From: Clavibacter zhangzhiyongii
GTDB lineage: Bacteria > Actinomycetota > Actinomycetes > Actinomycetales > Microbacteriaceae
NCBI RefSeq assembly: GCF_014775655.1
Contig: NZ_CP061274.1
Coordinates: 496,001-560,000 of the forward strand
Length of the DNA: 64,000 nt
Reading direction: 5' to 3'
The notes below the pieces were generated by a model that worked only from the letters and a program-made list of their open reading frames with translations, had not been told where the DNA came from and searched no databases. Of the stretch, positions 43,076 through 55,412 are shown piece after piece (within the stretch, counting starts at the first letter, position 1; each line of letters opens with the position of its first letter). Made by a program: the position numbers and the translations under genes.

Positions 43076-43744
43076 ATGCACGAGACGGAGGCCGTCGCCC
43101 GCGCCCGAGCGATGTGGGACGCGGGGCGGCGTCGGGAGGCGACCGCGTCGCTCGTGGACCGGGTCCGCAGCCACCCCCGCGAGGAGGTCGCGCGCCTCAC
43201 GCTCGCGGGCTGGTACCGCGAGCTCGGGGCACCGGATCAGGCGGGCCGCTGGGGCATCGCGACGCCGGGCTGGACCACCGCGCCGGAGCGCGACCGGCTG
43301 GCGCGCATGATCGCGACGTCCGGGCACCGCGGGGACGGGATCCTCCGGTTCCTCGACCTGCCCGAGCGGGACGTCCCCGCGGACGTGGCCGAGCTGCTGC
43401 CGCTGGTGGAGCGCCATCGGGAGCGGTACGCCCGCGCCGGGGTGCCGATCGCCGAGGTCGCGCCGCCCGCCGATCCCCGACACGAGGTCGCCGTCGGGCT
43501 GTGCGTCGGCGCCGGGGCGGTGTTCGCCGTGGGGATGCTCCTCGCGGGGATCCTGTCCCTCTTCGGCGTGGCCGTGGTCGGCGTCGCGCGCTGGACCGGC
43601 GTGGTGGCGCTCGTCCTGCTGAAGCTCGCCGTGATCGCCGAGGGCACGCGCCCGCGGCCGGGCCGGCGGTGGATCACGGCGCTCGCCTTCGTCGTGGCCG
43701 TGGCGCTGGCCTTCGCCTACTGGGGCCTGGCGCGGATCGCGTAG
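43076..43744 (+). CDS. Tandem paralogue 1: soluble helical domain plus two membrane helices (DUF6584-like)
   Basis: A 222-residue protein. The first 85 residues form a helical domain with the motif AGWYRELGAPDQAGRWGIATPGWTT, shared with the next two genes; it resembles what has been called DUF6584, though I cannot confirm that here. Two hydrophobic segments follow (GAGAVFAVGMLLAGILSLFG and a second near residue 170), then a third near the C-terminus. The WYRE-xx-DQAGRW pattern resembles a tetratricopeptide-like repeat. CAGCAT lies 6 nt before the ATG as a weak -10. No function can be assigned. Confidence 0.82.
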   Translation: MHETEAVARARAMWDAGRRREATASLVDRVRSHPREEVARLTLAGWYRELGAPDQAGRWGIATPGWTTAPERDRLARMIATSGHRGDGILRFLDLPERDVPADVAELLPLVERHRERYARAGVPIAEVAPPADPRHEVAVGLCVGAGAVFAVGMLLAGILSLFGVAVVGVARWTGVVALVLLKLAVIAEGTRPRPGRRWITALAFVVAVALAFAYWGLARIA

Positions 43745-43829
43745 CGGGGAGCGCCGGGGTGCTCGCGCAGGAGGTCCTGCGCCGGGGATGATCCGCGCGC
43801 GGCCCGCTGGGATCCGCGACCCTGGGCGC

Positions 43830-44492
43830 ATGCAGCGATCCGAGGTCGTCGACCGCGCCCGGACGCTGTGGGACGCCGGACGGCGGCGGGACGCGATCGT
43901 CGAGCTGCGCACCCGCGTGCGGCGCGAGCCGGGCGACGCGGTCGCGCGCCTGCTCCTCGCGTCCTGGTACCGCGAGGTCCGCGCCCCCGACCAGGCCGCG
44001 CGGTGGGGCATCGCCCTCCCCGGCTGGACCACCCCGCGCGAGCGCGAGCTGCTGGCGCGCCTGATCGCGTCGTCCGGCGTGCGCGACGAGGACCTCGGCC
44101 GCTTCCTCGCGCTGCCGGCGGGTGAGCGGCCCGGCGAGCTCGACGAGGTCATGGCGGTCGTGGGCGGCCTCCGCGCGCCCGACGGGTGGCGCGGCGCGAA
44201 GCCGCTGCGGCGATCCGACCGGCGGAGCGAGATCGCGCGCACCCTGGGCGCGCTGGGCGTCGTGGTGCTCGCGGGCGCCCTGCTCGTGTCGGGGCTCGTG
44301 GCGCTGGTCGGCGACGGCGCGACGCCCCCGGCGCGGGGCGGCGTCGCCCTGGCCCTCGCGCTGCTCGCCGCCGCCGCGCTCGTGGAGGGGACCCGTGCGC
44401 GCGCGGGCTGGTGGTGGGTCGGGCCGTCGGCGGTCGCGCTCGCGGCGGTGCTCGCGGCGGCCGCCGCGGCGCTCGCGCGGCTCGCCGTCTGA
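43830..44492 (+). CDS. Tandem paralogue 2: helical domain plus membrane helices
   Basis: A 220-residue paralogue of the preceding protein. VDRARTLWDAGRRRDAI and ASWYREVRAPDQAARWGIALPGWTT align without gaps to paralogue 1. The C-terminal half has two to three hydrophobic segments, with a different sequence from paralogues 1 and 3. ATG at 43830 (MQRSEVV) is chosen by alignment of the N-termini; GACCCT lies 6 nt upstream. A separate 85-bp spacer before it suggests its own promoter. Confidence 0.82.
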   Translation: MQRSEVVDRARTLWDAGRRRDAIVELRTRVRREPGDAVARLLLASWYREVRAPDQAARWGIALPGWTTPRERELLARLIASSGVRDEDLGRFLALPAGERPGELDEVMAVVGGLRAPDGWRGAKPLRRSDRRSEIARTLGALGVVVLAGALLVSGLVALVGDGATPPARGGVALALALLAAAALVEGTRARAGWWWVGPSAVALAAVLAAAAAALARLAV

Positions 44493-44567
44493 CGCGTGCG
44501 GTGGCACCCGGGCGTCCGGCGGCGCGCGCCGGATGCGGACGCGCCGCCCGCCTGCCACGATGAGCGG

Positions 44568-45260
44568 ATGGACGAGGCCGGGGCGATCGCGCGCGCCACG
44601 GCGATGCGGGAGGCCGGCGAGCGCGCGAAGGGGATCCAGTCCCTGCGGTCGCGCGTCGAGGCGCATCCGACCGAGAGGTCCGCGCGGCGCCTGCTCGCCG
44701 AGTGGTACCGCGACGACGGCACGCACGACCAGGCCGGCCGCTGGGGCATCGTGCTCCCCGGCTGGACCACCACCTACGAGCGCGACCGCGCCGCGCGCCT
44801 GTTCGCGGCGTCGTACCCCGTGGGCGGCGACGTGCGCGCGTTCCTGCACCTGCCCGCGGGGCCCGTGCCGGAGGACGCGCGGCTGCTGGCGGCGCGGATC
44901 CCGGTGCAGCGGGAGCTGCTGTCCCGCCGGGCGCAGCCGCCGATGCCGCCGCCGCTCCCGGCGCCCCCGGGACCGCTGGACGGGTACGCCCCGGTCGTGG
45001 GCATCATCGCCTTCGTGCTCTTCCTCGTCGACGTCGCCCTGACCTTCGGCGGGACGCTCCTCGGCTGGCCGATGGCCGCCGTCACGCGCTGGGTCTCGCT
45101 CGGGGTGGTGGTGCTCGCGGCCGCCGCGGTCGTGCTGGGGCTGCTCAACGCCTTCCTCACCCCGGCGCGGCCGACCGCGGAGGAGACGGACGAGGGCGTC
45201 GTGCCCGCGGATCCGCCCGACGACGGCGCTCCCGACGCGGGCGCCCCGGGCGGCTCGTGA
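44568..45260 (+). CDS. Tandem paralogue 3: helical domain plus membrane helices
   Basis: A 230-residue paralogue. AEWYRDDGTHDQAGRWGIVLPGWTT matches the other two in the shared domain. A Pro-rich linker (PPMPPPLPAPPGP) then leads to two transmembrane helices and an acidic tail. ATG at 44568 is chosen by alignment; CACGAT lies 6 nt upstream. The stop overlaps the start of the phosphopantetheinyl transferase gene (GTGA), so those two are coupled. Confidence 0.82.
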   Translation: MDEAGAIARATAMREAGERAKGIQSLRSRVEAHPTERSARRLLAEWYRDDGTHDQAGRWGIVLPGWTTTYERDRAARLFAASYPVGGDVRAFLHLPAGPVPEDARLLAARIPVQRELLSRRAQPPMPPPLPAPPGPLDGYAPVVGIIAFVLFLVDVALTFGGTLLGWPMAAVTRWVSLGVVVLAAAAVVLGLLNAFLTPARPTAEETDEGVVPADPPDDGAPDAGAPGGS

Positions 45261-45829
45261 CCCCCGGCGACGTCACGGTCGCGCGCGTGACGGTCGACGC
45301 GTCGGCCGACCGCCCCGCCCGCACCGCCGCCGGCCGCGCGGCCCTCCGCGAGCTGGCCGCGGAGCTGGTGGGCGCCCGGCCCGACGAGGTGACGATCCGC
45401 GCCCGCTGCGCGACCTGCGGCGGCGCGCACGGGCGGCCGGTGCCCGGCGGATCCTGGGCGCTCGACAGCCTGCACGCGAGCGTCGCGCACGCGGGCGACG
45501 CGGTGGTGGTCGCGGTGAGCGCCGAGGGGCCGATCGGCATCGACGCGGAGCCGCGCGACCGCGAGGCGCCTCCCGGGACGACGCTCGCCGACTGGGTGCG
45601 GATCGAGGCGGTGCTGAAGGCCGACGGGCGCGGCCTCCGCGTCGAGCCGGAGCGCGTCCGGTTCGCGGACGACGCGTGGGGGACCGTCGCGTGGATCGAC
45701 GGCGAGCCCGCGCGCTACCGCGTCCTGGACGTCGCGCTGGCGCCCGACCTCGTGGTCACCGTCGCCCGCCGTGCGCGGCGCGCCGGTGTGGAGCCGCTCA
45801 CGGTCGAGATCCGCGTGCTCGACCGCTGA
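45257..45829 (+). CDS. Sfp-like 4'-phosphopantetheinyl transferase family protein
   Basis: A 190-residue protein. The motifs LHASVAHAGDAVVVAVS, GPIGIDAEPRD (Mg-binding Asp) and DWVRIEAVLKADGRGL correspond to the order of Sfp-type enzymes, which load coenzyme A-derived phosphopantetheine onto carrier proteins. The usual WxxKEAxxK reads WVRIEAVLK, with Ile for the first Lys but Glu and the last Lys kept. It is small for an Sfp enzyme. The carrier domain of the synthetase gene about 5 kb away is a natural candidate substrate. GTG at 45257 overlaps paralogue 3. Confidence 0.75.
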   Translation: MTPGDVTVARVTVDASADRPARTAAGRAALRELAAELVGARPDEVTIRARCATCGGAHGRPVPGGSWALDSLHASVAHAGDAVVVAVSAEGPIGIDAEPRDREAPPGTTLADWVRIEAVLKADGRGLRVEPERVRFADDAWGTVAWIDGEPARYRVLDVALAPDLVVTVARRARRAGVEPLTVEIRVLDR

Positions 45830-45856: not shown

Positions 45857-47077
45857 TCACTCGTTCTCCGCCTGGTCCAGCACGAACTCCGTGAACCCCG
45901 GCACGGTGAAGGACAGGTGCCCGTGCTTGTTCGCGTCGAGGAGCCCCTTGTCCAGGAGCTTCTGGCGGGCGACCGAGATGGCCCTCGTGGTCGTCCCCAG
46001 GGCTTCGGCGAGATCGGCGCGCTTGACGTCCACTCCGCCCAGCCGCGCGACTGCCACGAGCATGTCCTGCTGACGTGGGCTGGCAGACCTCCAGCGTGCG
46101 CTGAAGAGCGTCTCCATCTCCGAATCCACGGACGGCAGCGCGGCCAGGACATCCTGGAGCGCGATGGCGTCATCCGGTCGCAGGCCGTCACGCGCGAGTC
46201 GGTGGGAGGCCGCCCGCCATGACGCATCGCCGATCAGCTGCACCTTGTAGGGGTAGCCGCCTGATTCCGCCACAGCCCGGTCGAGGGCGGCCAGGTCCCA
46301 GTCGACGGCGACGCTCGCCGCCGTGGCCTGGAGCGCCTCCCGCGCGCCGGCGTCGGACAGGCCGTGCAGGGGCTGGAAGCTGAACCGCTCGCTGAACGTC
46401 ACCGCCTTGTTGATCTTCGTCGGGGCACCCGGCAGTCCGACGGCGAAGAGCGCGGTCCGCGGCTGCCCGGGTTCGACGGCGCGAAGCGGGGCCATCTCCT
46501 GCCATGCGTAGGCGAGCGTGCGCAGGCTCTCGGGGTCCGCCTCCTGGATCTCGTCGATGAGCAGTGCTATCCCCGCGTCCCCGTCGTGGATCACCGCATC
46601 CACGGCGGCGCGGATCGCCTTCTGGACCTGCTTCGCCGACGCGGCCGTCCGTGCGCGCTCCGGGGTCAGCGAGACGCCGACCTGCACGATGCCGGGCGCC
46701 CCCAGCGTGACCGTCGCCGAGTCGATCGCCTCGAGTGCGGACTTCCGCAGGCGGTTGCCGGTTCCCACGACCTGCCGGAGCTCTCCGAGCAGGGATCGCA
46801 CCAGGTCCTCGTCGGGATTGGCCGTGATCAGCACGGTCCGGATGCGGTACCCGCCGAAGATGCGCTGCGCCTCCCGGAGCAGCGACGTCTTGCCGATCCC
46901 ACGGGGTCCGTGGTCGACGTGCACACGGGGGATGAACAGTCCGTCGGATGCCATGCGCTGTGCCGCCTCGCGGAACTGCTGCAGCTTGTCCGCCCGTCCG
47001 GGCAGGCTCGTCGGCACGGATCCCGGCGTGTACGGGCTCAGCGACTCGCTCGGATGACGCCCATCGTCGTTATACAT
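45857..47077 (-). CDS. AAA/ATPase-domain protein with C-terminal winged-helix region
   Basis: A 406-residue STAND-like or archaeal-type ATPase. Walker A is GPRGIGKTS at residues 57-65 in DHGPRGIGKTSLLREAQR, Walker B is IALLIDEIQEAD near residue 170, and an Arg-rich sensor follows. The last 90 residues (LGGVDVKRADLAEALGTTTRAISVARQKLLDKGLL) look like a winged helix-turn-helix. A TATACT -10 lies 8 nt before the ATG, and a 14-bp inverted repeat overlaps the start, so autoregulation is plausible. It is not tied to any obvious operon. Its biological role is unknown. Confidence 0.85.
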   Translation of the reverse strand: MYNDDGRHPSESLSPYTPGSVPTSLPGRADKLQQFREAAQRMASDGLFIPRVHVDHGPRGIGKTSLLREAQRIFGGYRIRTVLITANPDEDLVRSLLGELRQVVGTGNRLRKSALEAIDSATVTLGAPGIVQVGVSLTPERARTAASAKQVQKAIRAAVDAVIHDGDAGIALLIDEIQEADPESLRTLAYAWQEMAPLRAVEPGQPRTALFAVGLPGAPTKINKAVTFSERFSFQPLHGLSDAGAREALQATAASVAVDWDLAALDRAVAESGGYPYKVQLIGDASWRAASHRLARDGLRPDDAIALQDVLAALPSVDSEMETLFSARWRSASPRQQDMLVAVARLGGVDVKRADLAEALGTTTRAISVARQKLLDKGLLDANKHGHLSFTVPGFTEFVLDQAENE

Positions 47078-47131: not shown

Positions 47132-48445
47132 TCAGCGACGCCCGACCCGCGGCAGCGCGGGCAGCGGCCCTTCCGCGAGCCACGCCCGCAGCAGCGCGCC
47201 CGCGTCGCCGGCCGCGCCGACGAGGTCCGCGGTGGTGCGCGGGGCCGTCCAGGCCGGATCCGTCCACCGCAGCAGCAGCTCGCGCCACCCCGCGTCGCCG
47301 AGCGTCAGCCGCAGCGCGTGCACCGCGAGGGCGCCGCGCTTGTAGACGACGTCGTCGAACATCGAGTCGGGCCCGGGATCGCCGATGCCGAGGCGCGTGC
47401 CCTCGCGGACCAGGCGCGCGTGGTGCTCGCGCGCGAGCTGATCCGCCGACGGCCCGCCCGACTCCTCCGACCACAGCCACTCGGCGTAGCAGGCGAAGCC
47501 CTCGTTGAGCCAGATGTGCCGCCACGCCGCGAGGCCCACCCGGTTGCCGAACCACTGGTGCGCGAGCTCGTGCGCGACGAGCCGCTCGGATCCGCCCGTG
47601 CCGTCGGCGTGGTTCGACCCCAGCACCGCCATGGCCTGCGCCTCGAGCGGGATCTCCAGCTCGTCGTCGGTGACGACCACGCGGTACTCGTCGAACGGGT
47701 ACGGCCCGAACAGCGACTCGAAGAACGCCATCATGCGCGGCACGAGCGCGAGGTCGGCGAGCACGCGGGCCTCCCGAGGCCGCGGGTACGCGAAGACGGC
47801 CTCGGTGGATCCGGCGGGCACGCGCCTCTCCGCGTACCGGCCGATCTGCACGGTCGCCAGGTACGGCGCGGTGGGCGCGTCCTGCGCGTAGGTCCAGGTG
47901 GCGCGGCCGGAGCGCTCGACGCGGGAGAGGAGCCGTCCGCTCGCGACGACGGAGTAGTCGACCTCGCACGCGACGCGCACGACGAAGGCGGCCCGGTCGT
48001 CCGGCCGGTCGTTGCAGGGGAACCAGGTGGACGCGCCGCTCGGCTGCGACGCGACGAGCACGCCGTCGCCGAGCTCCTCCCAGCCGAGCTCGCCCCAGAC
48101 GGTGCGGCGCGGGCCGGGCTCGCCGGAGTACGCGACGTCGACCGTGAAGGTCGCGCCCGCCGGGATCGGCGCGGCCGGCGTGACGACGAGACGCCCGCCG
48201 CGCTGCACGTGCCGGGTCTCGCGGCGGCCGTCGACGCGCACGTCGGTGGCGCGGAGGCCCGTGAGGTCGAGCTCGAACCGGGCGAGCGGCTCGCGGGCGA
48301 CGGCCGTGAGGATCGCACGCGCCTTCAGCCGGTTGCGGGCCACGCGGTAGTCGAGGTCGAGGTCGTAGCGCTCGACCGCGTACGTGGAGGAGCCGACCTC
48401 GGGGGTGTAGTCGTCGCCGGACGCCGGTCCCGTCGCGGCCCTCAC
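47132..48445 (-). CDS. M1 family zinc metallopeptidase (aminopeptidase-like), coupled to the Pls-type synthetase
   Basis: A 437-residue gluzincin. The zinc site is HELAH at residues 292-296 with Glu315 in WLNEGFA, exactly HExxH-x18-E. The canonical GxMEN substrate motif is replaced by IPLEAQ (Glu268). The beta-saddle N-terminal domain and the catalytic domain are present, but the C-terminal helical domain of large M1 enzymes is missing. No signal peptide is seen. GTG at 48445 overlaps the synthetase stop (GTGA). In epsilon-poly-lysine producers an M1-family peptidase that degrades the polymer accompanies pls, so the context supports a degradation or immunity role. Confidence 0.9.
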   Translation of the reverse strand: MRAATGPASGDDYTPEVGSSTYAVERYDLDLDYRVARNRLKARAILTAVAREPLARFELDLTGLRATDVRVDGRRETRHVQRGGRLVVTPAAPIPAGATFTVDVAYSGEPGPRRTVWGELGWEELGDGVLVASQPSGASTWFPCNDRPDDRAAFVVRVACEVDYSVVASGRLLSRVERSGRATWTYAQDAPTAPYLATVQIGRYAERRVPAGSTEAVFAYPRPREARVLADLALVPRMMAFFESLFGPYPFDEYRVVVTDDELEIPLEAQAMAVLGSNHADGTGGSERLVAHELAHQWFGNRVGLAAWRHIWLNEGFACYAEWLWSEESGGPSADQLAREHHARLVREGTRLGIGDPGPDSMFDDVVYKRGALAVHALRLTLGDAGWRELLLRWTDPAWTAPRTTADLVGAAGDAGALLRAWLAEGPLPALPRVGRR

Positions 48446-51400
48446 CGGCGACCGGCGGTCGCGGGCGCCTCGGTCGCGGGATCCGCGACGGTCGCGGACG
48501 CGGACGCGCTCGCCCCCGCGGGCAGGTACCGTCCGAGCTTCACCTCGCGCCACGGGCCGATCGGGTTGCCGCTCCAGCGGCTCGCCTCGGGCACGAGCTC
48601 CCCGCGCATCACGAGGCTCGCGGGGCCGACGGTGGCCTGCGGGCCGATGCGCGCCGCGGGGAGGATGACGCTGTGCGGCCCGAGGGTCGCACCCGCGTCG
48701 AGGGTGACGGTGTCCATGCTCATGATCCGATCATGGAACAGATGCGTCTGCACGACGCACCCGCGGTTGATCGTGGATGCATCGCCGAGGGTCACGAGGT
48801 CCGCCTCGGGCAGCCAGTGCGAGTCGCACCACACGCCGGATCCGATGCGCGCGCCGAGGCTCCGCAGCCACCAGACGAGCGCGGGCGTGCCCGCGGCCGA
48901 CGACGCGAACCAGGGCGCGGCCACCATCTCCGTGAAGACGTCCGACACCTCGCTGCGCCACACGAACGACGACCACAGCGGGTGCTCCTCCGCGCGGATG
49001 CGGCCGATGAGGATCCACTTCGCCGCCGTCGAGATGCCCGCCGCGACCGCGCCCGCCGCGAGCAGCACGACGCCGCCCAGCAGGAACGCGACGAATGGGC
49101 CCCACGCCTCGGTGAGCGCGGCGAGCGCCACGAGCACCGCGAGGCCGATCGCGCAGGTCACGATCACGGGAACGACGCGCAGCAGCTCCCAGAGGATGCG
49201 CGCCACGCGCAGCCGCGTCGGCGGCCTGAACGTGCGGGAGTCGTCGGCCGCGGCGACCGTGCGCCGGAGCCGGACGGGCGGGGAGCCGAGCCACGAGGAT
49301 CCCGCCTTCGACTTGGTGGGCGCCGCCGAGAGCACGGCGACGAGGCCGTCCTTCGGGACCTTGTGGCCGGGACCCGCCATGCCGGAGTTGCCGAGGAACG
49401 CGCGCTGGCCGATCTCCGCGCGGGCGACGCGCATCCACCCGCCGCCGAGCTCGTAGCCGGCCACGAGCGTGTCGTCGGCGAGGAAGGCGCCGTCGCGGAT
49501 CGTGGTCATCGCGGGGATGAGGAGCACGGTCGACGCCTCGACGTCCTTGCCCACGCGCGCGCCGAGGAGGCGCAGCCACACGGGCGTGAAGAGGCCGGCG
49601 TAGAGCGGGAAGAGCACGGTGCGCGCGAGGTCGAGGAGGCGCTCGGTAGACCACAGCTGCCAGCCGACGCGGCTCCGCACCGCGTGGATGCCCTCGGTGA
49701 CGCCGAGGCCGAGCAGGCGCACGGATCCGACCACGAGCAGCGCGAGCACCAGCCCCGTGACCAGCACGGCGGGCACGAGCGCGCCGAGGCCGCGCCACCA
49801 GACGTCGCCCAGGTCGGCGGATCCTCGGATCGCGGCCGCGAGGATCCCGCCGCCCGCGACGAACGCCACCACGGGCACGAGCGCGGTGGCGACCGAGGCG
49901 GCGCCGTACGCCGCGACCCAGCGGGTGTTGCGCGGCGGCCGGTGGTCGGGCCACCAGACGCGCGCCTTGCCGACGCGCGCGGCGGGGGATCCGGCCCAGC
50001 GCTGGCCCGACGGCACGCGTCCGAAGACGGCCGAGCCCGGCGCGATCTCCGCGCCCTTGCCGATGCGCGTGCCCGGCAGCAGGGTCGAGCGGGTGCCGAC
50101 CGTGGATCCCGCGCCGATGCGGACCGCGCCGACGCGCACGGTGTCGCCGTCGATCCAGTAGCCGGAGAGGTCGACCTCGGGCTCGACGGATGCGCCCCGG
50201 CCGATGCGGAGCATGCCCGTCACCGGCGGCAGCGTGTGCAGGTCGACGTCGTCCGCGATGCGCGCGCCGAGCGCCCGCGCGTAGTACGTAATCCACGGCG
50301 CGCCCGCGAGCCCGACCGCGCCGATCTGCTGCGCGATCTGCTCGGCCAGCCAGAGCCGCAGGTGCCAGCGGCCGCCGCGCGGGTGGTCGCCGGGCGTGAG
50401 GCCGCGGAGGAGGAGGCGCGCGGCGACCGCGGAGATCGCCATGCGGCCGAACGGCGTCGCGAAGAGGAGGAGGCCCGGCGCGAGCACCCACCAGGAGACG
50501 TCGGGCAGCGCGTCGAAGCCGCCGAGCGGGCTCAGCAGCGCGCTGGCGGTGAGCAGGAGCGCGAGCCAGCGGAGGCTCTGCAGGGCGAGGAGGGGCGCGC
50601 CGAGGAGGGTCTGGATCCACTGCGTGCGGCGGGGCGTGGGCGTCACGTCCACGCGCGGCCCGCTGCGCTCGGCCCGCGGCGCGCGTCCGGCGATGGCGGC
50701 GTGCATGGCGCCGAGGCGCGGGTGCGCGTAGACGTCGGCGACCGTGAACTCGGGGTCGATCGTGCGGATCCGCGCCACGAGCTGCGCGGCCGACAGGGAT
50801 CCGCCGCCCAGGTCGAAGAAGTTGGCGTCGGCGCTCGCGACGGGCGTGCCGAGCGCGGCGGACCACATCTCGGCGAGCGGGCGGAGCTCCGCGTCGAGGT
50901 CGGCGCCGTCGTCGCCCGCGGCGCCCGGCAGCGGCCACGGCAGCGCGGCCCGGTCGACCTTGCCGGAGGTGCGGGTGGGCAGCGAGTCGACGACGCCGAT
51001 GAGCGGCACGAGCGCGGCGGGCAGCGCGACGCGGAGGCGCTGCACCGCGTCCTCGCGGGAGAAGGCGGCCGGATCCCGCGGCACGAGGTAGCCGACGAGC
51101 ACCTGGTTGCCGGCGTCCGTGGTCTGCACGGCGACGGCCGCGCCCTGCACGTCGTCGAGGTCCTGCAGCGCCGCCTCGATCTCGCCCAGCTCGATGCGCC
51201 GGCCGCCGACCTTCACCTGGTCGTCCGCGCGGCCCTGGAAGACGAGGCCCTCGGCCTCGAAGCGCACGAGGTCGCCGCTGCGGTACGCGCGGTCCCACGC
51301 GAGCGCGGGGAACGGGGCGTACTTCTCGGCGTCCTTCGCGGGATCCAGGTAGCGGGCGAGCCCGACGCCGCCGATGATCAGCTCGCCGACGCCGCCCTCG

Positions 51401-52560
51401 GGCACGCGCGCGCCCTCGGCGTCGACCACGGCGAGGGTCCAGCCGTCCAGGGGCAGGCCGATCCGCACCGGGCCGGGTCCGCCGAGCGGGGCCGCGCACG
51501 CGACGACGGTGGCCTCGGTGGGGCCGTACGTGTTCCAGACCTCGCGGCCGTCGGTCGCGAGCCGCTGCCCGAGCTCGGGCGGGCAGGCCTCGCCGCCGAA
51601 GATGAGCAGCCGCACGTTCTCGAGCGACTCCGCGGGCCACAGCGCCGCGAGCGTCGGGACGGTGGACACGATCGTCACGCCGTGCGTGGTGAGCCAGGGC
51701 CCGAGGTCCATGCCGCTGCGGACGAGGCTGCGGGGCGCGGGCACGAGGCACGCGCCGTGGCGCCACGCCAGCCACATCTCCTCGCAGCTGGCGTCGAACG
51801 CGACCGAGAGGCCCGCGAGCACGCGGTCGCCGGGGCCGATCGGCTCCTCCTGCAGGAACAGGCGCGCCTCCGCGTCGACGAAGGCCGCGGCCGAGCGGTG
51901 CGAGACGGCGACGCCCTTGGGGGTGCCGGTGGATCCCGAGGTGAAGATGATCCACGCGTCGTCCTCCGGCGCGGGCGGCGCCACGAGCGGCAGCGCGGAG
52001 GTGGAGGCGTGCGCGGCGGCGGCGGGGAGCACGCGGAGTGCCGCGGCGGCAGCGGCCTCGGCGTCGGCGGCGTCGGCCGTGCGCGGCGCGTACTCGCCCG
52101 TGCCGGTCACGACGCCCGCGACGCGGGCCTCGCCGAACACGAGCCGGGCGCGCTCATCGGGGTCGTCCGCGTCCACCGGCACGTAGGCCGCGCCGGCCGC
52201 GAGCACGCCGAGCACGGTGACGTAGAGGTCGCGGGATCCCGACGGCATGCGGATCCCGACCCGGTCGCCCTTCCCCACGCCCGCCTCCCGCAGCGACGCG
52301 GCGACCTGCACGACGCGCGCCATGAGCTCGCGGTAGCTGAGCGCGCCGTCGCCGTCCTCGATGGCGGACGCGTCGGGGTGCGCGGCGACCGTGGCCCGGA
52401 GCACGTCCACCAGCGTGCGCGGCGGGGTGACGGCGTCCGCGCGGTCGAGCACGCGCTGGGCGCCCTCGCCCGCACCCGCGAGGTCCGCGGCGTCCTCCGC
52501 GGGAGGCGCGGCCACGGCGTCGTCGTGCGGCGTCGCCGCCTCCGGGGAGGACTCGGGCAT
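48442..52560 (-). CDS. Pls/PosA-type non-ribosomal peptide synthetase (poly-amino-acid synthetase-like)
   Basis: A 1372-residue membrane NRPS. An adenylation domain (about residues 45-540) has FTSGSTGTPKGVAVSHRS, NTYGPTEATVVA, YRSGDLVRF and GRADDQVKVGGRRIELGEIE. A thiolation domain follows with phosphopantetheine Ser588 in FFDLGGGSLSAAQ. The C-terminal 750 residues have six hydrophobic segments and three soluble repeats with hexapeptide-like VGTRSTLLPGTRIGKGAEI turns, the layout of epsilon-poly-lysine synthetase, which makes homopolymers without thioesterase or normal condensation domains. Length is close to the 1319 residues of the Streptomyces enzyme. The amino acid used is not known. It lies between a GntR gene and a coupled M1 peptidase gene. 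Confidence 0.9.
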   Translation of the reverse strand: MPESSPEAATPHDDAVAAPPAEDAADLAGAGEGAQRVLDRADAVTPPRTLVDVLRATVAAHPDASAIEDGDGALSYRELMARVVQVAASLREAGVGKGDRVGIRMPSGSRDLYVTVLGVLAAGAAYVPVDADDPDERARLVFGEARVAGVVTGTGEYAPRTADAADAEAAAAAALRVLPAAAAHASTSALPLVAPPAPEDDAWIIFTSGSTGTPKGVAVSHRSAAAFVDAEARLFLQEEPIGPGDRVLAGLSVAFDASCEEMWLAWRHGACLVPAPRSLVRSGMDLGPWLTTHGVTIVSTVPTLAALWPAESLENVRLLIFGGEACPPELGQRLATDGREVWNTYGPTEATVVACAAPLGGPGPVRIGLPLDGWTLAVVDAEGARVPEGGVGELIIGGVGLARYLDPAKDAEKYAPFPALAWDRAYRSGDLVRFEAEGLVFQGRADDQVKVGGRRIELGEIEAALQDLDDVQGAAVAVQTTDAGNQVLVGYLVPRDPAAFSREDAVQRLRVALPAALVPLIGVVDSLPTRTSGKVDRAALPWPLPGAAGDDGADLDAELRPLAEMWSAALGTPVASADANFFDLGGGSLSAAQLVARIRTIDPEFTVADVYAHPRLGAMHAAIAGRAPRAERSGPRVDVTPTPRRTQWIQTLLGAPLLALQSLRWLALLLTASALLSPLGGFDALPDVSWWVLAPGLLLFATPFGRMAISAVAARLLLRGLTPGDHPRGGRWHLRLWLAEQIAQQIGAVGLAGAPWITYYARALGARIADDVDLHTLPPVTGMLRIGRGASVEPEVDLSGYWIDGDTVRVGAVRIGAGSTVGTRSTLLPGTRIGKGAEIAPGSAVFGRVPSGQRWAGSPAARVGKARVWWPDHRPPRNTRWVAAYGAASVATALVPVVAFVAGGGILAAAIRGSADLGDVWWRGLGALVPAVLVTGLVLALLVVGSVRLLGLGVTEGIHAVRSRVGWQLWSTERLLDLARTVLFPLYAGLFTPVWLRLLGARVGKDVEASTVLLIPAMTTIRDGAFLADDTLVAGYELGGGWMRVARAEIGQRAFLGNSGMAGPGHKVPKDGLVAVLSAAPTKSKAGSSWLGSPPVRLRRTVAAADDSRTFRPPTRLRVARILWELLRVVPVIVTCAIGLAVLVALAALTEAWGPFVAFLLGGVVLLAAGAVAAGISTAAKWILIGRIRAEEHPLWSSFVWRSEVSDVFTEMVAAPWFASSAAGTPALVWWLRSLGARIGSGVWCDSHWLPEADLVTLGDASTINRGCVVQTHLFHDRIMSMDTVTLDAGATLGPHSVILPAARIGPQATVGPASLVMRGELVPEASRWSGNPIGPWREVKLGRYLPAGASASASATVADPATEAPATAGRR

Positions 52561-52664
52561 GTGGTCTCCGTTCGGGTCGGGCGGCGTCCGTACTGTCCGG
52601 CCTCCGGGTGAACGGGAGGTGGAATCGCGGCGACCCGGCGTCGCCTGGTGCCGCAGGGGCGGGA

Positions 52665-53033
52665 TCAGCCGGCGGCGAGCGCCTCGTCGACCACGCGCCG
52701 CGCGTCGTCGTCGGGGGCGCCGAGCCGGCGCGCGAGCTGCGCGTACGCGACGGCCGCGGCGCGGAGCGCGGCGGGCACGTCGTCCTGCGCGGCGACGTAC
52801 GAACCGGCGCGACCGCGCGTCTCGATCACCCCGTCGGCCTCGAGCTCCCGGTACGCCCGCGCCACCGTGTTGACGGCGACGCCGGCCTGCTCCGCGAGCG
52901 CCCGCACGGTCGGCAGTCGCGCACCGACCGGCAGCTCGCCGGCGGCGGCCCGGCGCGCGACCTCCGCGCGGAGCTGCTCGTAGGGCGGGATCGCGGAGCC
53001 CGGGTCTATGCGGTAGCCGGGCGCGGGATCCAT
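52665..53033 (-). CDS. GntR family transcriptional regulator (YtrA-like, short)
   Basis: A 122-residue regulator. IPPYEQLRAEVARRAAAGELPVGARLPTVRALAEQAGVAVNTVARAYRELEADGVIETRGRAGSYV is the GntR winged helix; only about 40 residues follow, as in the YtrA subfamily with no large effector domain. It is on the same strand as the synthetase, 104 bp upstream, and is the natural candidate to control it. TAGCCT lies 6 nt before the ATG. YtrA-type regulators often control envelope-stress or antibiotic-linked transport genes. Confidence 0.9.
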   Translation of the reverse strand: MDPAPGYRIDPGSAIPPYEQLRAEVARRAAAGELPVGARLPTVRALAEQAGVAVNTVARAYRELEADGVIETRGRAGSYVAAQDDVPAALRAAAVAYAQLARRLGAPDDDARRVVDEALAAG

Positions 53034-53045: not shown

Positions 53046-53169
53046 GCGGTCGAAGGCGTTCGTGCCGTTTTTCAGTCGGAGTTTCACCGTGACTTTCTTG
53101 TGTTGAACGGACCTTCGGGTTCCCCACGGACTGATAAGCGCAGTCTGAGCAGAGGTAGTGTCTAGGACT

Positions 53170-54105
53170 ATGCCAGCTCAAGACGCTTATCTCCGTCGGC
53201 TCGAGACTCTCCTTCATGCGATAGAGGGTATTGATGGGGTCACCGACGAGGGCAAGAGGCTCGCAACTCAAGCCGTGCAACGTGTTCTAGAAACTTGGAC
53301 AAATGACCCCTTCTTGCTTGAGTCTTCCGATACGATGCCCTCGTTCTGGGATGAGGCAGATGAGGTTTTGGCCGCGCTGCCAAATGTGCCCTCCGATGAG
53401 CCTGCGGCTCTTCACGCCTGGGCGAGAAATTTGACTTTTAAACTTATCAATCAGGTCGATAGCTACATCGAATACGATGAAGGAAGTCCTAGGCAGAGGG
53501 CTTCCGCTTTCGATCTGCAGCGAAATCTCGCGTCAGATATTCAGGACATCGCAACTTCTGAGACGGGTGAGCGAATGCAAGCTCGCGCCGACAAAGTGCT
53601 AGCTGGTATAGAGAATACCGAGCGGTCGGTACAAGTTGCGGCAGGCAACGTTGGTGGCACAAAGCTCTTTGAGTACTTCGGGGACTACGCAGATTCACAG
53701 CTTAAGGCAGCTAATTTCTTTCGCTGGGCAACGATACTCTTAATTTCGGCTGGTGGGATAGTGTCGCTTGCGCTACCGCTGCCGGGACGCGCGGACTGGG
53801 CTACAGTCGCAGCTCGGCTGAGCGTGCTTGCGGCCGTAGTGGGGCTTGCCGCGTACTGTGGCCGGCAATCAACGCACCACAGGCGTATCGCAGATTGGGC
53901 CCGAGCGCTTGAGGTGCAGCTGAAATCGTTACCGGCATTCATTGAGCCCATTCAGGCAGATGAGCAGCGAGACGGAATCTACGCGGCTTTCGCAAGGCGA
54001 ATTCTGGGAAATCCACCAGATGGGTCATCGGCGAATAGTGATACGACAGAACTTTCAATGACCCAAGTTATTGATCTGTTGTCCGTCGTGATCAAAAAAG
54101 CGTAA
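53170..54105 (+). CDS. Unrecognised lower-GC protein: long helical domain, two membrane helices, C-terminal helix
   Basis: A 311-residue protein I do not recognise. Residues 1-180 are hydrophilic and mostly helical in composition; two transmembrane segments lie at about 183-203 (FFRWATILLISAGGIVSLALPL) and 213-230; an HHRRIADWARALEVQL helix and a Ser/Thr-rich tail follow. The 2TM-after-helical-domain layout resembles SLATT-type membrane effectors in defence systems, but I see no diagnostic motif. Base use differs from its neighbours: two 60-nt lines inside it (53461-53520 and 53701-53760) have 31 and 27 G+C by hand count. TAGTGT lies 8 nt before the ATG; GTG at 53158 is an alternative start. 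Confidence 0.75.
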   Translation: MPAQDAYLRRLETLLHAIEGIDGVTDEGKRLATQAVQRVLETWTNDPFLLESSDTMPSFWDEADEVLAALPNVPSDEPAALHAWARNLTFKLINQVDSYIEYDEGSPRQRASAFDLQRNLASDIQDIATSETGERMQARADKVLAGIENTERSVQVAAGNVGGTKLFEYFGDYADSQLKAANFFRWATILLISAGGIVSLALPLPGRADWATVAARLSVLAAVVGLAAYCGRQSTHHRRIADWARALEVQLKSLPAFIEPIQADEQRDGIYAAFARRILGNPPDGSSANSDTTELSMTQVIDLLSVVIKKA

Positions 54106-54271
54106 ATAAAGGAAAGAGTGCTTTGTTGGTCATCGATGATGACTGCCGAATCGCGTGCTTCATGAGGGTCACGCATTCTGGCTCAAGTGCATGGTGGGTG
54201 GATGAGATCCACGCGACGGCGGGGCAAGATGGAGGAGCGGCGATCCCACCGCCGCCGACTGGAGGTCCCGC

Positions 54272-54643
54272 ATGTCCGAGCTCGAGCTGATCACCATGTG
54301 GTCGCGCGCCCGCAAGCAGATGATTACGAGCCAGCTCGGCCCGATCTTCCTGCTCACCGCCACCGTGTTCCTACTGCGCACCGGCCTCGCCGACGCCGAC
54401 CTGGGCACGCGACTCGCCGCCGCCCTGATCCTGCTCGCTACCGGCGCCCTCGGTGCCGCCGTGCAGTTCTCCCTCAACTCGCAGGCCATCGCGATCGCCC
54501 GCGACCTCCGCGAGTCGGGCGCCACGTCGCACGCGGCCCGCGTGGTCATCGCCGCGGAGGGCCTCACGAACCTCGTCCGCTACGCGATCCCGGCGCTGTT
54601 CGTGGTCATCTACGTCGTGATCCTAGTGGCGCTGTTTGCGTAG
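54272..54643 (+). CDS. Small three-helix membrane protein
   Basis: A 123-residue membrane protein with three hydrophobic segments (IFLLTATVFLLRTGLA; RLAAALILLATGALGAAVQF; YAIPALFVVIYVVILVALFA) and a positively charged loop before the last one. Its base use is high-GC like the chromosome, unlike the genes on both sides. ATG at 54272 has GGAGG 7 nt upstream. No known family is evident. Confidence 0.75.
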   Translation: MSELELITMWSRARKQMITSQLGPIFLLTATVFLLRTGLADADLGTRLAAALILLATGALGAAVQFSLNSQAIAIARDLRESGATSHAARVVIAAEGLTNLVRYAIPALFVVIYVVILVALFA

Positions 54644-54698
54644 GCGCGATTTGAGGTGTTCATCATCGTGTAGTCGACTCGGTCACAATCGGAGGTCT

Positions 54699-55412
54699 AT
54701 GGTGAAGCAGTATCCGGAGACGCCGGAAGAGAGTCCTGCGCAGAGCGTGGCGGTCGCAGTCGGTATGGGGGCTCTCGGATCTATTCCTCTTGTGGGAGGA
54801 ATGGTGGCGGGAGGTTTGTCAGCAGTCATCGCAGCGAAGCAACGTGAGCGCGACGAGGAGTTCTGGGCATGGACCGCTGCCCGAGTCCGTGCCTTAGAGG
54901 AGCGTCTGGCAGGCGTCTTTGATCCGACGGATGATGAGTTCTTCGTGGCCGCGCAGAAGGTTATTAGAGCGTCACGCGAGACGGCGGATCAAGAGAAGCG
55001 GCGACTTCTGGCCGAGGTGCTCGCGGAGTCGGGTTCGTGGTCAGACATTCCTTACGATCGGCGAGAGCGATACCTCGACGTTGTCGTAAGGATGACACCC
55101 TGGCATATGAGGGTGCTTTCGTATTTCCAAGATCCGAGCGGGTGGTTTCACCGACGGGGGTTGGAGCATGAGCTTTATCGTTTATCGGGCAGCATGACGT
55201 CGATCGTGCAGGTCGCGACTGACTACGTGGTGCCGGCGGATTTACCATTTGAGCTTATCGTTTCGGATCTGGAACGGGAGCGCCTGGTGGATGTGCCATT
55301 ACATACATTGATGACCGGTAGTGGAACTGTCGATGCGCGAACGACCGGCGACGGCGCTGGTTTGTTAGGATTCTTAAACGGTGCCCCCGCCGCTTCTTGG
55401 CCGACTTCGTAG
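54699..55412 (+). CDS. Unrecognised lower-GC protein with Gly-rich hydrophobic N-terminal segment
   Basis: A 237-residue protein. Residues 20-50 (MGALGSIPLVGGMVAGGLSAVIAAKQRERD) form a Gly-rich membrane-like hairpin, followed by a charged helical domain (FFVAAQKVIRASRETADQEKRRLLAEVLAES) and RYLDVVVRMTPWHMRVLSYF. The GG-hairpin plus this helical region recurs in accessory-region hypothetical proteins of many bacteria, including ones near defence genes; I know of no assigned function. GGAGG is 3 nt before ATG 54699, so GTG 54702 may be the real start. Base use is lower in GC than the chromosome. Confidence 0.75.
   Translation: MVKQYPETPEESPAQSVAVAVGMGALGSIPLVGGMVAGGLSAVIAAKQRERDEEFWAWTAARVRALEERLAGVFDPTDDEFFVAAQKVIRASRETADQEKRRLLAEVLAESGSWSDIPYDRRERYLDVVVRMTPWHMRVLSYFQDPSGWFHRRGLEHELYRLSGSMTSIVQVATDYVVPADLPFELIVSDLERERLVDVPLHTLMTGSGTVDARTTGDGAGLLGFLNGAPAASWPTS

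Follow-up and report, generated by a model that had tools for sequence, protein, structure and literature searches.

A Predicted Epsilon-Poly-L-Lysine Synthetase, Its Coupled M1 Peptidase and a Neighbouring Phosphopantetheinyl Transferase in Clavibacter zhangzhiyongii

Known Systems and the Clavibacter Locus

In Streptomyces albulus, the epsilon-poly-L-lysine (epsilon-PL) synthetase gene pls and the peptidase gene pldII overlap by 4 bp within a single operon, and PldII has been named the main degradase of the polymer (PMC4361855). In PosA, a related synthetase, the published model shows three left-handed beta-helices packed as in sugar nucleotide acyltransferases, and the same source ties position 2 of the adenylation pocket to the monomer, with Ala for lysine, Met for ornithine, and Phe for diaminopropionate or diaminobutyrate (PMC10522769). 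The present work concerns a locus of Clavibacter zhangzhiyongii (Microbacteriaceae), located in a stretch of 64,000 nucleotides (positions 496,001 to 560,000 of contig NZ_CP061274.1), referred to here as the window. On the minus strand, and in the order of transcription, this locus holds the genes of a GntR regulator, a Pls-type synthetase, and an M1 metallopeptidase, and the gene of a putative 4'-phosphopantetheinyl transferase (PPTase) lies nearby. It is highly probable that these genes form a locus for making and degrading the antimicrobial polymer epsilon-PL, built from a lysine-activating Pls, a coupled M1 peptidase, a nearby PPTase, and a GntR regulator.

Microbacterium has been listed among the genera with Pls homologues (PMC8117764), and epsilon-PL clusters have been described in Agrococcus, Microbacterium, and Leifsonia (PMC12067966), so the gene set was already known in the Microbacteriaceae. 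The sequence-only reading that this analysis follows up, which knew of no such product from this family, thus has to be corrected for the genes, while it stands for the chemistry. No chemically shown product of a member of the Microbacteriaceae was found in the open-access literature searched, where the available passages (PMC12067966, PMC10522769, PMC9223678, PMC4361855, PMC4668381, PMC8949500, PMC11078813, PMC12689991, PMC12287039, PMC13388484, PMC13163003) name gene clusters rather than products, the exception being the expression of Corynebacterium variabile pls in Streptomyces coelicolor, which yielded epsilon-PL (PMC8117764).

The Synthetase and Its Predicted Monomer

The synthetase gene (48442–52560, minus strand) encodes a protein of 1372 residues and contains zero internal stops. 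The NCBIfam model TIGR02353 (Pls/PosA family non-ribosomal peptide synthetase, equivalog domain) matches residues 649–1334 over profile positions 2–695 of 695, at a score of 728.6 bits (cut-off 423.1; E = 7.1e-219). Pfam detects AMP-binding (residues 55–403) and AMP-binding_C (460–534), which make up the adenylation (A) domain (residues 55–534; 50959–52398, minus strand), followed by PP-binding (562–620; 50701–50877, minus strand), corresponding to the thiolation (T), or carrier, domain with its phosphopantetheine site at Ser588, and by a single Hexapep match (813–845). The same scan finds no condensation or thioesterase domain in the synthetase, in agreement with the sequence-only reading, whose coordinates and counts for the locus also hold.

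Among protein sequences of the PDB, the top phmmer match of the synthetase is 7WEW, annotated as 'Epsilon-poly-L-lysine synthase', which we take to be the S. albulus enzyme; 318 of the 472 aligned residues of the adenylation domain are identical between both proteins. The ten positions that we assumed to determine specificity, set by hand from gramicidin-synthetase numbering (residues 256, 257, 260, 299, 320, 322, 344, 352, 353, and 534), read DAESIGTVVK, and all ten are equal to those of 7WEW. In an alignment of 122 rows (the window, 7WEW, and 120 loci), these residues are the same in 120, with one row bearing V for I and one fragment lacking the site, and the column of Ser588 holds Ser in all 120 rows that cover it. 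The 121 loci of the genome and locus comparisons partly overlap; for example, L043 and L168 come from the same genome, L052 and L142 do likewise, and one Clavibacter genome (G016) supplies two pieces.

The window synthetase thus carries a putative lysine-type adenylation pocket, and the identity of this pocket with that of 7WEW makes L-lysine the predicted monomer. A non-lysine pocket was ruled out by this ten-position identity. The monomer had previously been left as lysine, diaminobutyrate, or ornithine; the pocket argues for the first and, through Ala257 at position 2, against the other two, since the PosA, poly-diaminobutyrate, and poly-diaminopropionate synthetases hold Met or Phe there.

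It is therefore very improbable that the same machine makes poly-ornithine, poly-diaminobutyrate, or poly-diaminopropionate. TIGR02353 is named for both PosA and Pls, and nearby genes resemble an arginine/ornithine catabolic set (an AsnC-type regulator and, by eye, an ornithine-aminotransferase-like open reading frame), both of which would suit another monomer. However, the residues of the pocket itself speak against this, and a Phe-type pocket from the same bacterial family is unlike it. It belongs to a second synthetase from the genus Planctomonas (L167, L169, L170), 31% identical, whose pocket (DFECLSVVTK, with Phe at position 2) suggests a diaminobutyrate or diaminopropionate polymer; no M1 match lies beside it in the 13–17.5 kb fetched from each of the three genomes. 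Three other synthetases, 31–33% identical to Corynebacterium Pls, have also been placed in a different gene context (PMC8117764).

The C-Terminal Membrane Region

The predicted polymerisation region (residues 649–1334; 48559–50616, minus strand) alternates three pairs of transmembrane (TM) helices with three blocks of the hexapeptide/left-handed beta-helix type, one after each pair, an assignment drawn from TIGR02353, hydropathy, internal homology, AlphaFold2, and Foldseek. The hydropathy profile places the hydrophobic segments at about residues 652–676, 681–718, 880–915, and 920–958, with two adjacent ones in 1119–1186; the second segment needs averaging over the family to exceed the threshold, which is also exceeded by two more segments (111–130 and 506–529) inside the soluble adenylation domain. 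The three soluble blocks are mutually homologous (hhalign probabilities of 98.3, 99.1, and 96.9%). An AlphaFold2 model of residues 636–1340 (pTM 0.83, mean pLDDT 77), built from 39 relatives that are 58–82% identical, shows blocks of short strands and six membrane-type helices at the hydropathy sites, the second of them broken in two. The six hydrophobic segments and three soluble repeats proposed earlier are thereby borne out and, preceded by the A and T domains, they reproduce the layout of Pls and PosA, with the three TM pairs being placed by hydropathy and the model.

The top Foldseek matches of the model are mostly hexapeptide acetyltransferases, although with E-values no better than 0.02, all above 0.001, and a sequence search with one 120-residue piece of the region returned no solved structure. 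The three C-terminal blocks of these synthetases have been described as acetyltransferase-related (PMC8117764) and, given also the published PosA model, the resemblance to acyltransferases is expected and does not refute a polymer-forming role. The sequence-only reading had regarded an alignment of the C-terminal half with acyltransferases as a sign against the polymer, which was misplaced, as this resemblance is a known trait of the region.

The Coupled M1 Peptidase

The M1-family metallopeptidase (437 residues; Pfam Peptidase_M1) is encoded on the minus strand at 47132–48445, from a GTG at 48445 to the stop at 47132, and its GTG and the TGA of the synthetase gene share four nucleotides (GTGA). 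The protein holds an HExxH-x18-E motif at residues 292–315, which had been recognised beforehand together with the overlap, and H292, E293, H296, and E315 are invariant in all 119 aligned sequences, that of the window included. Its M1 domain, this motif, and the translational coupling downstream of pls identify it as a putative PldII-type enzyme, which would cleave epsilon-PL as its characterised relatives do.

The association of both genes was followed across 199 Microbacteriaceae genomes sampled from 85 genera, each species being represented once and Clavibacter by just four genomes. In this family sample, the epsilon-PL synthetase gene (E <= 1e-50) is present in 80 genomes, about two fifths, and an M1 homologue (E <= 1e-40) occurs in exactly these 80, always within 400 nt downstream; here and below, co-occurrence was counted across genomes with no correction for species relatedness. 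A second set, the best 80 of at least 587 related stretches, some of which end early at contig ends, comprises loci from named genera, all searched by tblastn for M1, GntR, and PPTase. In every one of these 80 loci the M1 gene lies 3' of the synthetase on the same strand, starting no more than 250 nt from the synthetase match in 75 and after a gap of 0.6–2.2 kb in the other five (Tsukamurella, Williamsia). The cationic isopeptide synthetase of the Pls type with its degrading M1 peptidase, as envisaged by the sequence-only reading, is thus supported by TIGR02353, the pocket, the architecture, and the co-inheritance of the peptidase.

The Phosphopantetheinyl Transferase

The sequence-only reading missed one nearby gene, located at 45257–45829 on the plus strand, convergent with the operon. 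From an inferred GTG start at 45257, it encodes a protein of 190 residues that, on its own, scores 16.7 bits and remains below the Pfam cut-off of 25. Three motifs, CxxCGxxHG, GxDxE, and WxxxEAxxKAxGxGL, recur among its relatives encoded near pls; the last two we take to be those of the Sfp-type PPTase family, and the family profile (A1, built on 17 of the 72 sequences found) matches Bacillus Sfp (1QR0) over positions 4–184 of 190 (E = 2.2e-14). To judge by these motifs and its two-lobed length, the product is a predicted Sfp-type PPTase.

The distribution of this gene follows that of pls. Within the family sample, the profile finds it in 80 of the 80 pls genomes versus 10 of the 119 that lack pls. 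It lies beside pls in 71 of these 80, either convergent and downstream (66) or directly upstream on the same strand (5), no more than about 10 kb from the second synthetase in three genomes of the genus Planctomonas, and away from pls in six, four of them with the gene on another contig. Among the 80 named loci, a PPTase was detected in the fetched DNA of 39 of the 44 from Micrococcales (Microbacteriaceae 23/26, Micrococcaceae 15/17, Intrasporangiaceae 1/1) versus none of the 36 others, with the families and orders being those to which we assume the named genera belong. In the genome of the window itself, 45257–45829 is the sole match to the profile, and the other PF01648 match, at 2730151, is presumably the fatty-acid AcpS. 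Its neighbourhood suggests that the PPTase probably loads the phosphopantetheine arm onto Ser588.

From these data, it could be proposed that the epsilon-PL locus of Micrococcales, most clearly in the Microbacteriaceae, is a three-enzyme unit comprising the synthetase, the degrading peptidase, and a dedicated, divergent Sfp-type PPTase that primes the synthetase. We regard this proposal as evenly balanced, after having placed it slightly above that level, because two Clavibacter genomes keep pls with no intact PPTase. These emerged from a whole-genome search of the five Clavibacter genomes in which pls is split or the DNA fetched around pls lacks a full PPTase match. The gene was located near the second pls piece in G016, on another contig in G002, and, in G009, slightly outside the fetched DNA, some 8.4 kb from the synthetase match. 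On the other hand, the sole copy in G015, about 7 kb away, is truncated, and the sole match in G011 is weak (46 bits) and distant from pls. As the synthetase match is full-length in both, 2 of the 17 further Clavibacter genomes hold pls without an intact PPTase, which points to a probable substitute enzyme or to a recent loss of the gene.

These two genomes count against a dedicated enzyme, as does the distribution across the order, where the profile is found in 86 of the 90 genomes with pls, and hence missing from four, but also in 50 of the 207 others, so that it is not exclusive to pls genomes outside the family. It is quite possible, if somewhat short of probable, that this protein acts as the cell's general Sfp-type enzyme, modifying other carrier proteins too, and that its proximity to pls reflects history rather than dedication. 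This would account for the ten family genomes that keep it without pls and for the six in which it lies elsewhere, and the genome of the window does hold two other carrier domains, one free and of the size of an acyl carrier protein, and one in a reductase-type A-T protein (C1:55808–59128, minus strand), which we take to be carboxylic-acid-reductase-like. However, the reductase half of the latter occurs in just 3 of the 199 family genomes, all of them Clavibacter, so it does not explain the distribution of the PPTase, and another carrier protein was rejected as the reason for its presence. Its occurrence in every pls genome of the family sample, in two arrangements beside pls in 71 of them, and near the second synthetase of Planctomonas also argues for dedication. 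If the PPTase is indeed dedicated to Pls, a missing or mismatched partner might help to explain the silence of synthetases moved into other hosts, and expression work could add the probable activating enzyme named here. No link between a PPTase and pls was found in print in the available portions of the open-access literature searched.

Proposed Activity of the Locus

Based on the assigned domains, the identical pocket, the architecture, the order of the genes, and the co-inheritance observed here, the adenylation domain would activate L-lysine, and the carrier domain would tether it to the phosphopantetheine arm of Ser588, probably provided by the nearby Sfp-type transferase. The membrane region, with its three TM pairs and three beta-helix blocks, would link the lysines via the epsilon-amino group and export the chain, while the coupled M1 metallopeptidase would hydrolyse the polymer, thereby lessening self-damage and setting the amount that accumulates. 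For the lysine substrate, the isopeptide polymerisation, and the cleavage of the polymer, this proposal follows the characterised relatives.

In addition to the small set of relatives behind the C-terminal model and the weak E-values of its structural matches, several points weigh against this assignment. The evidence for this organism comes from its genes, and there is a precedent for a silent pls, as no epsilon-PL was obtained from C. variabile in culture, nor from its gene in Corynebacterium glutamicum, although the protein was present (PMC8117764); the window locus may therefore be silent too. In the M1 protein no N-terminal hydrophobic segment is evident by eye, while PldII is said to sit outside the membrane (PMC9223678). 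Finally, the comparison with S. albulus covers the adenylation domain only in the case of Pls, and gene layout rather than sequence in that of PldII.

A synthetase that is degenerate or never expressed is nevertheless unlikely. Apart from the silent C. variabile culture, this explanation could draw on pls being split in G016 at about residue 764–765, with its halves (L163, L139) at two distant places of one contig, owing either to a rearrangement breakpoint within the gene or to an assembly error, and on the two-piece pls matches of another Clavibacter genome (G014) and of one from the family sample (G131). However, in the window the pocket and carrier residues are all intact, and Pls is found, whole or partial, at 92–95% identity in all 17 other Clavibacter genomes. 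Separately, of 14 control genomes only that of C. glutamicum exceeded the TIGR02353 cut-off, which means that this published expression host has its own member of the family.

The GntR Regulator and Neighbouring Genes

The GntR gene (52665–53033, minus strand) lies upstream of the synthetase gene, separated from it by 104 nt, and encodes a small protein of 122 residues with a Pfam GntR domain, whose best NCBIfam match, the Rv1152 family, reaches 119.2 bits, under the cut-off of 170. In each of the 17 other Clavibacter genomes, the end of a GntR match precedes pls by 101–126 nt (in G016, through the piece L163), but none was found upstream of pls in 22 loci from other genera at E 1e-3, and none of the four best GntR matches in the 80 named loci (L061, L081, L089, L095) stands directly upstream on the same strand. 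GntR was thus rejected as a conserved member of the set, a result that considers the best match per locus and that a diverged regulator could escape. Of the gntR-pls-M1 synteny suggested by the sequence-only reading, the pls-M1 pair is retained in 80 of 80 loci, while gntR is restricted to the genus. This regulator is a genus-level addition, and its position suggests that it probably governs the pls operon within Clavibacter.

Between the M1 and PPTase genes, an AAA ATPase gene is located at 45857–47077 on the minus strand; it follows M1 in 4 (L126, L132, L137, L139) of the 16 other Clavibacter loci that cover this place, and so comes and goes. On the plus strand, a tandem of three DUF6584/TPR-like genes spans 43076–45260; to the eye, their products carry hydrophobic tails, and the number of such genes differs between Clavibacter genomes. 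Upstream of the GntR gene, three more genes occupy 53158–55412 (plus strand). When compared with the 17 other Clavibacter genomes, the one of 123 residues (54272) is found upstream of pls in all of them, that of 315 residues has a match only in L126, and that of 258 residues has a match in none; due to this uneven conservation, part of the stretch looks like a variable insert.

Comparison with Known Systems

Like Pls-PldII of S. albulus, the window holds the lysine-type pocket, the adenylation domain, the match to the family model, and a coupled peptidase with a 4-nt overlap. Unlike that system, it has a GntR gene upstream, as is general in the genus, and a convergent PPTase gene, and its product is a predicted one. 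With C. variabile Pls it shares the synthetase family and the gene pair, and with the clusters of Microbacterium, Agrococcus, and Leifsonia both the synthetase family and the bacterial family; the available passages on these four genera mention no PPTase neighbour (PMC8117764, PMC12067966). The delta-poly-L-ornithine synthetase PosA of Acinetobacter baumannii exhibits the same A-T-membrane layout, with three left-handed beta-helices in its model, but differs in the Met at pocket position 2 and in its single-gene operon (PMC10522769). As for the PPTase, its likeness to Bacillus Sfp (1QR0) lies in the family profile, whereas the window protein alone falls short of the Pfam threshold. Taken together, the window holds an ordinary, well-formed epsilon-PL locus, of a kind widespread in its family. 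The useful additions are the conserved PPTase and a peptidase that accompanies pls in every pls genome of the family sample, and a possible use of the polymer against competitors by these common bacteria becomes directly testable.

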